Assembly: GCA_017461235.1 (NCBI GenBank)
Contig: JAFTYU010000005.1
Coordinates: 115,328 to 179,327, forward strand
From: Clostridia bacterium
GTDB taxonomy: Bacteria > Bacillota > Clostridia > Oscillospirales > Acutalibacteraceae
DNA length: 64,000 nucleotides
Direction of reading: 5' to 3'
The position numbers and the translations under genes were made by a program. The notes under the pieces are model-generated. The model saw only the letters and a program-made list of their open reading frames with translations, had not been told where the DNA came from and made no database searches. Shown here piece after piece: positions 1 through 3,528 of this stretch (position 1 is the stretch's first letter; each line of letters starts with the position of its first letter).

Positions 1-959
1 CTAAACTCAAAACTTCCGATTTCATTAACGAAAACGGTATTAACACCTTTACTGTCCGCTTTTTTATCGTGACGCAAGGCCGCTAACAATTCATCTGATT
101 CAAACTTCAAATCAAAGGGAAGATTATATTTACATAAAACCTTTTTCAATCTTTCTCGAACTGACGGTGACGAGAACGCCAACATACCTATTGCAACGCA
201 CTCACCGTGTAGATAATCACCTAAACCCGTTGCGGTTTCAATAGCGTGGGCAGCGGTATGACCGAAGTTAAGAACACGTCTCAAGCCAAGCTCTTTTTCA
301 TCTTCCTGAACAACTGCTCTTTTGATTTTGAGAGAACGCTCGATAACGGTATCAATTTTTTCAAAAGCATCTTCATTCTCAATAATATCAAAAAGAACCG
401 CATCAGACGTTGCCGCCATTTTAATACTCTCTGCAAGTCCGTTGTTAAACTGCCTGTCTGAAAGGGTTTTCAATACATCCGGGTCAATTATAACGGCTTT
501 AGGCTGATAAAATGCACCAACCGTATTTTTATATCCGCCGAAATCAATAGCGGTCTTGCCGCCGATAGATGAATCAACCTGCGAAAGCAACGTTGTAGGT
601 ATGTTGTAAAAATCAATACCACGCATATACGTGGAAGCCGTGAACCCTGACAAATCACCTACAACACCACCACCCACTGCAACAACACAGTCGGAACGGG
701 AAAATTCATTCTCACTCAAAACCTCAAGCAATTCTCTGTATGTATCAAAGTTCTTGCTTTTCTCCCCCTGCGGAATTGTTTTTATAATACAGTTTTCAAA
801 CTGGGCGCCGACAGTTTCGGCGTACTGTGCAGGAACACCGCTGTCAGTAACAATTAACGCACGTTTTTCGGTATTAATACATTCACCAACATTGCTTAAC
901 GCTCCGCGTCTCAAGGTAATATCATATGCTCCTGTTGATGTTTTTACCGTTAATATCAT
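1..959 (-). CDS. aroB: 3-dehydroquinate synthase (partial, C-terminus beyond window)
   Basis: Second step of the shikimate pathway: cytosolic, NAD- and metal-dependent conversion of DAHP to 3-dehydroquinate. The first 319 codons are present and the frame stays open through base 1; the family is usually about 350 residues, so only the C-terminal tail is missing. Visible motifs are the nucleotide-binding VAVGGGVVGDLSGF (around residues 97-110), IPTTLLSQVDSSIGGKTAID, and the metal-ligand segments RVLNFGHTAAHAIE and LHGECVAIGM. The ATG lies 14 nt after the pheA stop, so it is the third gene of an aromatic amino acid operon transcribed leftward and probably shares the leader-peptide attenuator at 3284-3428. 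Confidence 0.96.
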   Translation of the reverse strand, partial: MILTVKTSTGAYDITLRRGALSNVGECINTEKRALIVTDSGVPAQYAETVGAQFENCIIKTIPQGEKSKNFDTYRELLEVLSENEFSRSDCVVAVGGGVVGDLSGFTASTYMRGIDFYNIPTTLLSQVDSSIGGKTAIDFGGYKNTVGAFYQPKAVIIDPDVLKTLSDRQFNNGLAESIKMAATSDAVLFDIIENEDAFEKIDTVIERSLKIKRAVVQEDEKELGLRRVLNFGHTAAHAIETATGLGDYLHGECVAIGMLAFSSPSVRERLKKVLCKYNLPFDLKFESDELLAALRHDKKADSKGVNTVFVNEIGSFEF

Positions 960-973
960 AGAGCGTCAGCCTC

Positions 974-2074
974 CTAAATTATCTGCTCTTTGGGATATCT
1001 GCCTAAAAGACGGACATTGGTACAAACCTCCGAAAGTTCAGAAAGCATTTTTTCTTCTGCTTCATGGGTAAGATGTCCTTCACCTTCAAGGAAGAAATAA
1101 TAGTTCCAGATAACGTCTTTAGATGGTCTGCTCTTTAAGGCTTTAAGGTTATAGCCACATTCACCGAAAACAGAAATTGCTTTACCAAGCGAGCCTGCTT
1201 CATCACGAACGGTAAACAAAACAATAAAATTGCATCTGTCGGTTGTGTTATCGCGAGGCACACGCGAATAAACTGCAAAACGGGTTGTATTTGTACTGTC
1301 TTTGTTTATTTTTCTGTCAATAAGCTTCAAGCCGTATTCGTTGCCGGCTTCAAGACTGCATATAACGCCTAATGCGGGGTCATTATTTTCAGCAACAAGT
1401 GACGCCGCAACTGCTGTATTGACGGTTTCTTCCTTAATATAACCTTTTTCTTCGATAAAGTCGGCACACTGACCCAACGCCTGGGGATGACTTATTACCT
1501 TTTTTATGGTTTTGCCGTCGGCATCCTGAGTACCGAAAAGATGCTGCTCAACCGCCATATCGTAAACACCGTTAATAAACAACGAGCCGAAGTACGTCAG
1601 ATCCATAACTGGTGCTACATCACCTTCGTAACTGTTCTCAATAGGTAAAACTGCAACTTCGCACTCACCATTTTCAACGGCTTTGTATGCAGCTTTAAAA
1701 TTCGGGTACGGTACAGGGACTGCATCGGGGAAAATTCTTTTAACGGCTATTTCAGCGAAAGCACCTTTAACACCCGAAAAGGCAACGCGTGTTCCATCAA
1801 TTATCTTATGTTGATAATCCTTGGAAAGCTTCATTGTATTTTTCAGGAAATTGATGTAGTATGAACGGATTTCGTCATTTTCAATCAAACTGCTGTTTGC
1901 TTCTATAAGTTGGTTTTCGCGGACGAGATCTTCAATGGGTATTCCGTTTGCTTTTTTATATTGCGCAACGTGGACTGCCGCCTTCATACGTTTCTCAAAG
2001 AGTTTTGCAATTTCTTTGTCAATTTCGCTTATATCAGCCCTTGCCATGCGGAAATTTTTTTCGTAATCATTCAT
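974..2074 (-). CDS. pheA: bifunctional chorismate mutase / prephenate dehydratase (P-protein)
   Basis: Converts chorismate to prephenate and then phenylpyruvate, the committed steps of phenylalanine synthesis. At 366 residues it has the usual P-protein layout: an AroQ-type chorismate mutase helical domain (about 8-90), a prephenate dehydratase domain starting at GVKGAFAEIAVKRIFP (about 100-280) with the catalytic-region motif NTTRFAVYSR, and a C-terminal ACT domain (about 285-360) containing SRPSKDVIWNYYFFLEGEG, the normal site of feedback inhibition by phenylalanine. Its first codons overlap the end of the upstream aminotransferase by 8 nt, so the two are probably translationally coupled. 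Confidence 0.95.
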   Translation of the reverse strand: MNDYEKNFRMARADISEIDKEIAKLFEKRMKAAVHVAQYKKANGIPIEDLVRENQLIEANSSLIENDEIRSYYINFLKNTMKLSKDYQHKIIDGTRVAFSGVKGAFAEIAVKRIFPDAVPVPYPNFKAAYKAVENGECEVAVLPIENSYEGDVAPVMDLTYFGSLFINGVYDMAVEQHLFGTQDADGKTIKKVISHPQALGQCADFIEEKGYIKEETVNTAVAASLVAENNDPALGVICSLEAGNEYGLKLIDRKINKDSTNTTRFAVYSRVPRDNTTDRCNFIVLFTVRDEAGSLGKAISVFGECGYNLKALKSRPSKDVIWNYYFFLEGEGHLTHEAEEKMLSELSEVCTNVRLLGRYPKEQII

Positions 2075-3257
2075 TTTTATAATCCTCGTAAAGTTCTTTG
2101 AATGCTGAAAGAGAACGCTTGATTAAATCGGTATCAACGCAATATGCAATTCTCACAAAGCCGGGACAACCGAAATCATCACTAGGCACAAGAAGAAGCT
2201 CAAATTTTTTGGCTCTTTCATAAAATTTATAGGCGCTCTCATCGAGTGATTTTACAAACATATAAAATGCGCCATCCGGTTTTATAACGGTATAACCGAT
2301 ATCGGTAAGACCGTCATAAAGAATCCTTCTGTTTTCTTCATAAACTGAAACATCAGCAGTATCATCAAGACATTCTGCTACGGTATATTGCATAAGACTC
2401 GGAGCGCAAACATAACCTAATGCTCTACCCGAACCGCAAACGGCAGCAAAGACATCCCTGCACTCCTTCATAGTGGGTGAAACGAAAATATATCCGATTC
2501 TTTCACCCGGCAAAGAAAGCGCCTTAGAGTACGAATAACAAACGAAAGAATTGTCGTAGTATGCAGGAATATACGCAACCTTTTCACCTGTGAAAACAAG
2601 CTCTCTGTACGGTTCGTCGGAAATAAGAAAAATCTCTTTGCCGTATTCATTCTGCTTATCTTCAAGTAATTTCGCTAACTTTATAATATCGCTTTCGGGA
2701 ACGATAACGCCCGAAGGATTGTTAGGCGAATTAATAATGACCGCTTTAGTTGAAGGTGTTATGCTCTTTTCAAGAAGTTCAAAATCAATCTGTAAATCTT
2801 CAGTTTTGCAGCTTACAGGCACAAATTTCGCCCCTGCCTGTTCAACGAATACTCTGTATTCCGGAAAGAACGGCGCGAAAGCGATAACTTCATCACCGGC
2901 TTCGGTTATTGCGTTAAGAGTGACGGTAAGTGATGCCGCTGCACCGCAAGTCATATAAATAAGTCCTGCATCGGCATTAACGTTAAACCTGCTTTTAATA
3001 TATTCTGCAATAGCAGTTCTGACCTTTATATCGCCGGGACCGGATGTATAACCATGAAGGATCTCCGCAGGTGTTTCGGCAATAAGTCTGTTCATAACTT
3101 CAGTTACCTTCTGCGGTGCAGGTACGCTGGGGTTACCTAAACTGAAATCGAAAACATTTTCGGCTCCGATTTCCGCCTTACGGACTCTGCCATATTCAAA
3201 AATCTCACGGATAACTGAACTTTTTTTACCTAATTCGAGCATTTTTTCTGAAATCAT
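2067..3257 (-). CDS. class I/II PLP-dependent aminotransferase, probably aromatic
   Basis: Fold-type I aminotransferase of 396 residues. It has the substrate-loop motif NSPNNPSG and the PLP-lysine signature SYSKALSLPGERIGY. Sequence alone does not give substrate specificity. Its position as first gene ahead of pheA and aroB, behind a Tyr/Phe-rich leader peptide, suggests it makes phenylalanine and/or tyrosine from the corresponding keto acids; aspartate aminotransferase activity is the main alternative. A GGGAG ribosome binding site lies before the ATG. Expression is predicted to depend on readthrough of the terminator at 3284-3329. Confidence 0.88.
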   Translation of the reverse strand: MISEKMLELGKKSSVIREIFEYGRVRKAEIGAENVFDFSLGNPSVPAPQKVTEVMNRLIAETPAEILHGYTSGPGDIKVRTAIAEYIKSRFNVNADAGLIYMTCGAAASLTVTLNAITEAGDEVIAFAPFFPEYRVFVEQAGAKFVPVSCKTEDLQIDFELLEKSITPSTKAVIINSPNNPSGVIVPESDIIKLAKLLEDKQNEYGKEIFLISDEPYRELVFTGEKVAYIPAYYDNSFVCYSYSKALSLPGERIGYIFVSPTMKECRDVFAAVCGSGRALGYVCAPSLMQYTVAECLDDTADVSVYEENRRILYDGLTDIGYTVIKPDGAFYMFVKSLDESAYKFYERAKKFELLLVPSDDFGCPGFVRIAYCVDTDLIKRSLSAFKELYEDYKNE

Positions 3258-3283
3258 AATAATTCTCCCAATATATTCAAATG

Positions 3284-3329
3284 AAAAATCCGCAAACCGT
3301 TATACTTTTCAAGCATAGCAGAATGCGGA
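3284..3329 (-). terminator. attenuator-type intrinsic terminator in the aromatic operon leader
   Basis: On the minus strand TCCGCA pairs with TGCGGA, an inner CTG pairs with CGG, and a further 7-bp stem TATGCTT/AAGTATA (one G-T wobble) closes a GAA loop. TTTTTC follows directly. The hairpin sits between the leader-peptide stop codon and the aminotransferase start, so it can only act on transcripts entering this operon, which is the expected position for an attenuator. Confidence 0.8.
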
Positions 3330-3353
3330 CTGGCCATATACAATTCGTTGCAA

Positions 3354-3428
3354 TTACTTGCATGCACGAGCGGTACACAGACAATCCATAGTATAGTAAT
3401 AAAATCGTTGGCTAAAACTATAAAGCAT
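3354..3428 (-). CDS. Tyr/Phe-rich leader peptide (24 aa) of the aromatic amino acid operon
   Basis: A 24-codon frame starts at ATG 3428-3426 with a strong ribosome binding site (GAGAGGTG) 5 nt upstream and ends in TAA. It encodes a peptide with four tyrosines and two phenylalanines, including the run RFYYYT at codons 8-13. The intrinsic terminator at 3284-3329 follows 24 nt later, and the first structural gene after that makes phenylpyruvate or uses it. This layout matches ribosome-mediated attenuation as known for pheA and trp leaders in Proteobacteria. A small hairpin (TGCAA-GTAA-TTGCA) overlaps the stop codon. I could not define a unique antiterminator by eye. Confidence 0.72.
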   Translation of the reverse strand: MLYSFSQRFYYYTMDCLCTARACK

Positions 3429-3460
3429 CTGCTTCACCTCTCAAAAATATGATAGTTGGT

Positions 3461-3489
3461 ATTTTACTCCCACTATTATAGTTTGTCAA
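3461..3489 (-). promoter_or_regulatory. sigma-A type promoter of the aromatic operon leader
   Basis: TTGACA (3489-3484), a 17-nt spacer and TAAAAT (3466-3461) on the minus strand. The predicted start of transcription near 3454 gives a short untranslated stretch before the leader peptide's ribosome binding site. Confidence 0.75.
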
Positions 3490-3528
3490 GTAATTATTGT
3501 ATAAAAATTTAAAATAAATGAATAAAAA

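Follow-up and report, generated by a model that had tools for sequence, protein, structure and literature searches.

Introduction

Ribosome-mediated attenuation has long been known from Proteobacteria and Actinobacteria (PMC2965389). In Escherichia coli, pheA and trpE are preceded by attenuators with consecutive Phe and Trp codons in their leader mRNAs (PMC11878033), and in Corynebacterium glutamicum the AroR leader, which contains Phe-Tyr-Phe and precedes the aroF (DAHP synthase) operon, is reported to respond to limitation of Phe and not of Tyr (PMC11802643). Two candidate Phe/Tyr upstream ORFs (uORFs) located before shikimate genes have been described (Stav et al. 2019, PMC6429828, Fig. 6b); they stem from at least one of HIMB5, Clostridium novyi, Thermovirga lienii, Arcobacter, and Baumannia. 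In addition, uORFC-13-1 lies before aroF in Acholeplasma together with a terminator (PMC8632094). Leader-peptide attenuators described in Firmicutes include the Leu attenuator of Staphylococcus aureus ilv-leu (PMC5794164) and the His leader-peptide attenuation of hisZ/hisS paralogs in Bacillus (PMC2965389).

Here, we analyze a leader in the window, by which we mean the whole 64,000-nucleotide stretch of DNA examined, where a first-pass annotation had proposed an attenuator with a Tyr/Phe leader peptide. As far as sequence comparison can tell, this Phe/Tyr leader very probably lets stalled ribosomes switch on aromatic amino acid genes when the amino acids are short.

The Leader Element and Its Gene Cluster

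All parts of the element lie on the minus strand. A sigma-A type promoter, TTGACA-17-TAAAAT, is predicted at 3461..3489, with the -35 hexamer TTGACA at 3489-3484 and the -10 hexamer TAAAAT at 3466-3461 separated by a 17-nt spacer (11 of 12 positions match). The Shine-Dalgarno sequence GAGAGGTG (3435..3442), the AGGT of which is invariant in A1, an alignment of 14 sequences from the genus, precedes a leader ORF that starts with ATG at 3428-3426 and spans 3354..3428 including the stop codon. Its translation, MLYSFSQRFYYYTMDCLCTARACK, bears out the earlier count of four Tyr and two Phe codons among 24, and the putative regulatory codons 9–12, Phe-Tyr-Tyr-Tyr, occupy 3393..3404. The Shine-Dalgarno and start region forms arm 1 (3417..3438), which pairs with arm 2 in a 1:2 hairpin (a predicted anti-antiterminator); arm 2, GGATTGTCTGTGTAC (3373..3387), lies within the leader ORF and is the 5′ arm of the antiterminator; and arm 3, in its antiterminator form GTATATGGCCAGTCC, occupies 3327..3341. 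The intrinsic terminator hairpin AGUCCGCA...UGCGGAUU, consisting of arms 3 and 4, lies at 3287..3331 with a T-run that extends to 3284, and the first gene of the cluster starts 26 nt downstream of this T-run. The promoter, ribosome binding site, 24-codon frame, and hairpin with T-run described in the first-pass annotation upstream of an aromatic operon are thus all in place. Elsewhere in the window, a sigma-70-type promoter, TTGACA-17-TATAAT, that matches at 12 of 12 positions is found at 7688-7660 on the minus strand, upstream of an ORF at 7636-6740 that we presume to resemble NAD(P)H-hydrate dehydratase.

The cluster downstream begins, also on the minus strand, with a pyridoxal-phosphate aminotransferase (NF005305; 2067..3257), hereafter AAT, followed by pheA, which encodes chorismate mutase and prephenate dehydratase (974..2074; its ACT match is below cut-off), and aroB, which encodes 3-dehydroquinate synthase (1..959) and extends past the window edge. 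These three genes stand in the order first noted, but the operon does not end with them: on the same contig beyond the window, aroB is followed by aroC, an aroE/aroK fusion, aroQ, aroA, and a DAHP synthase gene, resulting in a cluster of eight closely packed genes that leads from DAHP synthesis to phenylalanine. The tight packing suggests that all eight are co-transcribed, and AAT presumably acts on a substrate of the phenylalanine pathway. The sole prephenate dehydrogenase (tyrA) match of the genome is on a different contig, and a search of this genome, which is 94% complete, for chorismate-binding enzymes of the trpE, pabB, or menF type gave none; Phe and Tyr therefore look like the main outputs.

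We estimated how often such a leader arises by chance by scanning for a Shine-Dalgarno sequence followed by an ORF of 9–45 codons with three consecutive aromatic codons. The scan was positive in 48 of 79 AAT-upstream regions of relatives (from the best 80 of 540 loci described below; the count includes L108, a locus judged to be a chance match), compared with 189 of 3,950 dinucleotide shuffles (4.8%), 15 of 1,056 forward and 18 of 1,056 reverse windows elsewhere in the same loci (1.4 to 1.7%; these background windows are mostly coding sequence), and none of 78 reverse strands of the AAT-upstream regions.

Conservation of the Phe/Tyr Codons

The genus set, which counts the window's own genome, consisted of 22 genomes. 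An AAT match at E ≤ 1e-60 is present in 15 of them; the remaining seven, some of them 95% complete, fall outside the AAT set. The same leader layout is found upstream of AAT in 14 of the 15 loci, the window's included, and the one exception is a GC-rich locus (L016) without the leader. Leader peptides in the genus include MFRSLYNRFYYSSMDCLCATRSCK, MYQSFNRFYYFIKDCLYTAQNCN, and MIRNFSYRFFYFINADCLCAE. The promoter is conserved as TTGACA-17-TAnnnT in 14 of 14 leader loci, which places the predicted transcription start upstream of the leader frame, as initially proposed. When only the leader served as a DNA query, four of the 14 loci (G005, G006, G010, and G015) escaped detection and were recovered by the protein-anchored search, demonstrating that DNA similarity underestimates the conservation of the leader. 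One genome (G007; loci L007 and L150) has approximately 300 nt extra between the attenuator terminator and AAT, possibly an insertion.

For a wider set, public genomes were scanned with the AAT alignment and the best 80 of 540 loci were taken, mostly metagenome-assembled genomes labeled Oscillospiraceae or Clostridia and many of them from ruminants. Among these 80 loci, three were not evaluable for the association of leader and pheA. A leader ORF with at least three consecutive Phe/Tyr codons is present in 48 of the 54 loci with pheA downstream and a Phe/Tyr leader ORF in one of the 23 loci without it (Fisher p 7.6e-13, and 4.1e-11 when the 11 same-genus loci are omitted; the loci are related, and both p values are indicative). 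The six pheA loci that on inspection have no comparable leader ORF are L051, L052, L075, L080, L086, and L088, and the leader-like ORF in the locus without pheA, L108, was rejected as a chance occurrence. Conservation of the Tyr/Phe codons in relatives, on which the first-pass annotation had made its reading depend, is therefore seen both in the genus (14 of 15 loci) and in the wider AAT-pheA loci (48 of 54 among the best 80 of 540).

Of the 1,069 residues that follow the initial Met in the 48 leaders from the best 80 of 540 loci, 171 are Tyr, 163 are Phe, and none is Trp. Tyr is encoded by TAT and TAC 122 and 49 times and Phe by TTT and TTC 138 and 25 times, respectively; because both synonymous codons are used, the constraint is not on a single codon. 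The runs in these relatives include FYYY, FYYF, FYY, FFYF, YYY, and YYYYYF and extend up to YFFYYFYFF. The distance from the start of the run to arm 2 is 17 or 20 nt in 31 of the 48 loci and 23, 26, or 35 nt in six, all of which have longer runs, and in the other 11 no arm-2 motif was found nearby.

This variation bears on whether the peptide itself could be the sensor. TnaC and the erm leaders work by nascent-peptide arrest, and a comparable arrest here would mean that free Phe or Tyr, or another small molecule, is sensed in the exit tunnel in place of tRNA charging. Residues resembling RF[YF]Y and DCL do recur in many leaders, as such a peptide might require, but arrest peptides normally conserve specific residues, and here the residues upstream of the run vary, the runs themselves range from FYY to YFFYYFYFF and YYYYYF, DCL is encoded by arm 2, the bases of which are held by pairing, and in the tyrA group described below codon content tracks the downstream genes. 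We therefore consider nascent-peptide arrest very unlikely and sensing through tRNA charging the better reading.

Mutually Exclusive RNA Structures

In the genus, RNAalifold predicts the 1:2 hairpin together with the terminator with 95.6% of alignment cells paired. Four pairs are changed on both sides, a number matched by 134 of 500 shuffles, and the covariation score was reached by none of 500. The antiterminator is likewise compatible with the genus sequences (96.4% of cells paired), and its covariation within the genus alone is not beyond that of shuffles, 103 of 500 of which reach the score. To represent more diverse sequences, we used alignment A3, which holds 31 of the 48 leader loci from the best 80 of 540, all of them AAT-first; 11 loci with divergent layout and six close relatives of retained sequences were dropped. 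In A3, the antiterminator comprises 12 pairs, with pairing in 85.2% of cells, whereas slid versions do not exceed 42.2%, and its covariation score was reached by none of 500 shuffles. Eight of the 12 pairs are changed on both sides; 30 of 500 shuffles attain this count. Two pairs do not form in 15 and 14 of the 31 sequences, respectively. The A3 terminator is 97.2% paired. A terminator was found in all 48 leader loci of the best 80 of 540 (a count without a shuffled control), and in 31 of the 48 the antiterminator of the single locus beats shuffled arms (at most 10 of 200 reach it; median z -2.3). The 1:2 hairpin is present in the genus and not conserved outside it, and it was consequently rejected as a family-wide feature. 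An antiterminator that competes with the terminator, which the earlier reading needed, thus exists and covaries over 31 diverse sequences, and folding shows the alternative structures.

Reading Register and Other RNA Families

Is the leader translated? The distance from the start codon to arm 2 leaves an identical remainder modulo three in 30 of 30 scorable A3 sequences; one start was not found, and because the starts had been selected to share the frame of the run, the test shows the run and arm 2 to be in register. The distance from arm 2 to arm 3 spreads 14/9/8 over the three remainders in the same alignment. The register is therefore held only where the ribosome reads.

Rfam contains Phe, Trp, and other leader families. 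At gathering score, nothing in the window matches Rfam except a tRNA, and at E ≤ 10 the region 3230-3520 gives only two unrelated sRNA matches at chance level, with no T-box and no leader family; a T-box or riboswitch at the leader site was rejected on these grounds. More generally, an RNA element that works without translation (a T-box, a riboswitch, or a protein-bound attenuator), in which the ORF is accidental, could account for how strongly the primary sequence of arms 2 and 3 is conserved within the genus. It would leave unexplained the in-frame spacing of run and arm 2 beside the unregistered spacing of arm 2 and arm 3, as well as gaps within the ORF upstream of arm 2 that, by eye in the alignments, are multiples of three, and together with the Rfam result this makes it highly improbable compared with a translated leader.

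The absence of a T-box at the leader, as first noted, does not extend to the rest of the genome, which has 12 T-box (RF00230) matches, five of them over the cut-off. For six of eight fetched T-boxes the next protein was scanned: matches to pheS, thrS, and trpB are over their cut-offs, and a 2-isopropylmalate synthase and two acyl-CoA ligase-like proteins are under them. The T-boxes before pheS and trpB are L027 and L032, the latter scoring 91.2 bits and so narrowly missing the family cut-off of 93; since the genome yielded no chorismate-binding enzyme, trpB may function in indole salvage. Two further matches on contig C4 (L030 and L034), one under the cut-off, lie before the acyl-CoA ligase-like genes less than 3 kb apart, and L028, before the 2-isopropylmalate synthase-like gene, is divergent from both. 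A leader-peptide attenuator and T-boxes therefore stand side by side in one genome, and given the pheS T-box, Phe charging is probably read by two devices, a T-box at pheS and a leader peptide at the AAT operon.

A Model of Ribosome Stalling

We folded the window's leader with the ribosome footprint masked, assuming that the footprint measures 12 nt, counted from the first base of the codon in the A-site. The naked leader RNA folds as the 1:2 hairpin plus terminator. With codon 9 or 10 in the A-site, the antiterminator is the best structure, and for codon 10 it has -36.4 versus -35.3 kcal/mol for the forced terminator, a gap of approximately 1.1 kcal/mol in the full RNA. With the A-site at codon 11 or 12, arm 2 is covered in part; the antiterminator still forms with the polymerase at the end of arm 3, and in the full RNA the best fold holds the terminator beside a shortened antiterminator. 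With the ribosome at the stop codon, the terminator forms. Because the gap at codon 10 is small and the terminator appears at codons 11–12, the model leans on co-transcriptional order, and because codons 9 and 10 free arm 2 wholly and codons 11–12 only partly, stalling at Phe9 or Tyr10 should be most effective.

These results fit the following scheme. With ample charged tRNA, the ribosome would reach the stop codon and cover arm 2, leaving arm 3 free for arm 4, and transcription would terminate. If charged Phe- or Tyr-tRNA is lacking, the ribosome would stall within codons 9–12, having reached arm 2 or halted slightly before it; arm 2 would then pair with arm 3 before arm 4 is synthesized, allowing the polymerase to read through. 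If the leader is not translated, the 1:2 hairpin would sequester arm 2 and the terminator would form. We are highly confident in reading the element as a ribosome-mediated transcription attenuator run by charging of Phe- and/or Tyr-tRNA and governing the whole shikimate-to-phenylalanine operon, with Phe and/or Tyr as the amino acid that is presumably sensed. The attenuator proposed in the first-pass annotation is in this way supported by sequence tests of codon conservation, antiterminator, and promoter position.

Distribution of the Probable Attenuator

R1, a covariance model of the attenuator trained on AAT-first loci, matched 23 of 300 genomes drawn from the taxonomic family, 39 of 394 from the order, and seven of 391 from the class, with one match per matched genome; the three draws overlap, and nine weaker order matches (E 2.3e-7 to 5.4e-4) lie outside the set of loci examined below. 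AAT, pheA, or DAHP synthase is at the front downstream of 22 of the 23 family matches, all 26 newly fetched order matches, and all four class matches outside the order. Of the 53 R1 loci examined, 52 therefore have pathway genes downstream, and a family match at E 3.7e-4 (L170) was judged false. The first gene is pheA at 16 loci and DAHP synthase at 13, and because these 29 loci were absent from the AAT-first training set, they provide an independent link to the pathway. Some family and order matches of R1 are not independent, as they come from genomes that supplied A3; L148, L151, L152, L153, L155, L157, L160, L174, L177, and L190, for example, have the leaders of training loci.

At one class-level match (L200), upstream of pheA, the leader MFFNRFSSFTFTTDCLCSVDTSRN identified by eye has five Phe and no Tyr codons; without a run of three, it is a possible Phe-only version.

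The constancy of the downstream genes also speaks to a further reading, in which the ORF is a gene for a small functional peptide with its own terminator and the AAT operon has another promoter. The ORF is short and a terminator follows it, just as such a gene would have. By eye, though, the peptide shows little conservation beyond the aromatic run and the codons of arm 2, and pathway genes follow nearly every R1 locus; together with the covarying, competing antiterminator and the mere 26 nt between T-run and AAT start, this renders a peptide gene extremely improbable and favors the attenuator.

A Sister Element Upstream of tyrA

The tyrA gene of the window genome (L117:552-1382) is preceded by an element at L117:388-540 (contig C4) consisting of a promoter, an ORF, MKNVIVATYYYYYYLGE, with six consecutive Tyr codons, and a terminator. 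The later Tyr codons form part of arm 1 in a 1:2 hairpin, and here, too, terminator and antiterminator are mutually exclusive. From 30 tyrA loci taken, such leaders were found in nine of 14 same-genus loci judged (L141, an incomplete locus, is left out) and in none of 15 more distant loci fetched. Seven of the nine have six Tyr codons in a row, L124 has five, and L125 has YYYCYY.

R2, a model of the tyrA element, matched 14 of 398 genomes of the family: five belong to the training set, six are leaders with mixed Phe/Tyr runs that precede ORF-tyrA pairs, and three (L210, L213, and L214; E 5.9e-5 to 6e-4) were judged false. The six mixed leaders (L206–L209, L211, and L212) belong to other genera of the family and precede DAHP synthase-tyrA pairs; the DAHP synthase (TIGR01361 type) was identified by profile in L206 and L209, and the other four ORFs start alike. 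Tyr and Phe codons number 52:12 in the nine tyrA-first leaders versus 27:26 in the six DAHP synthase-tyrA leaders (p 7e-4, which is indicative given that the sequences are related).

These leaders help to weigh whether the AAT attenuator might sense phenylalanine only, its Tyr codons being passengers, a narrower version of the attenuator reading that is not exclusive of it. The first-pass annotation had called a Tyr-sensing leader unusual in any group; Tyr codons need not mean Tyr sensing, however, as AroR contains Phe-Tyr-Phe and yet is reported not to respond to Tyr availability (PMC11802643). The folding results, in which arm 2 is fully freed by a stall at Phe codon 9 or Tyr codon 10 and partly by one at Tyr codons 11–12, the Phe codon with which most runs among the best 80 of 540 loci begin, and the L200 leader read by eye agree with sensing of Phe only. 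On the other hand, Tyr is as frequent as Phe in the leaders from the best 80 of 540 loci (171 vs. 163), some of those runs consist entirely or almost entirely of Tyr (YYY and YYYYYF), and the related tyrA leader carries runs of Tyr that contain no Phe, which argues that Tyr codons carry signal in this lineage. We accordingly regard sensing of Phe only as rather unlikely.

On balance, it is likely that gut Clostridia possess a set of codon-programmed attenuators, with mixed Phe/Tyr runs before AAT-pheA-aro, pheA, DAHP synthase-pheA, and DAHP synthase-tyrA and a Tyr-only run, mostly of six codons, before tyrA alone. If so, the tyrA leader would act as an attenuator dedicated to tyrosine, in cells with a T-box for pheS.

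Comparison with Known Systems

The mechanism is classical, and the family of AAT leaders is apparently undescribed; neither it nor a Tyr-run leader before tyrA was found in the open-licence papers searched, and an earlier description may exist. The Tyr-only tyrA branch is the most novel part and offers a natural test of tyrosine-specific attenuation. What the family adds is that, across a broad range of T-box-bearing gut Clostridia, classical ribosome-mediated attenuation is placed over the Phe/Tyr pathway. As codon content matches the downstream genes, the evolution of attenuator specificity by exchange of Phe and Tyr codons becomes directly testable.

The T-box (RF00230) and the AAT leader are alike in that, on our reading of the leader, tRNA charging is sensed and a terminator is controlled, with the difference that the T-box binds tRNA directly, without a ribosome. 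S. aureus ilv-leu and Bacillus hisZ/hisS resemble the AAT leader in that ribosome-mediated attenuation is used at sites where one could have expected a T-box, but they involve other amino acids and other genes. The uORFs of Stav et al. and uORFC-13-1 similarly are Phe/Tyr-containing uORFs upstream of aromatic genes; the AAT-leader family may overlap with them. AroR shares with the AAT leader a Phe/Tyr leader before an aromatic pathway operon, but it is from an actinobacterium, C. glutamicum. Finally, the AAT leader resembles the E. coli pheL/pheA and trp attenuators in having a leader ORF with codons for the product of the pathway, a terminator, a competing antiterminator, and pheA as a target, whereas it differs from pheL and trp in that it matches no Rfam family, mixes Phe and Tyr codons, and stands before the whole shikimate pathway.
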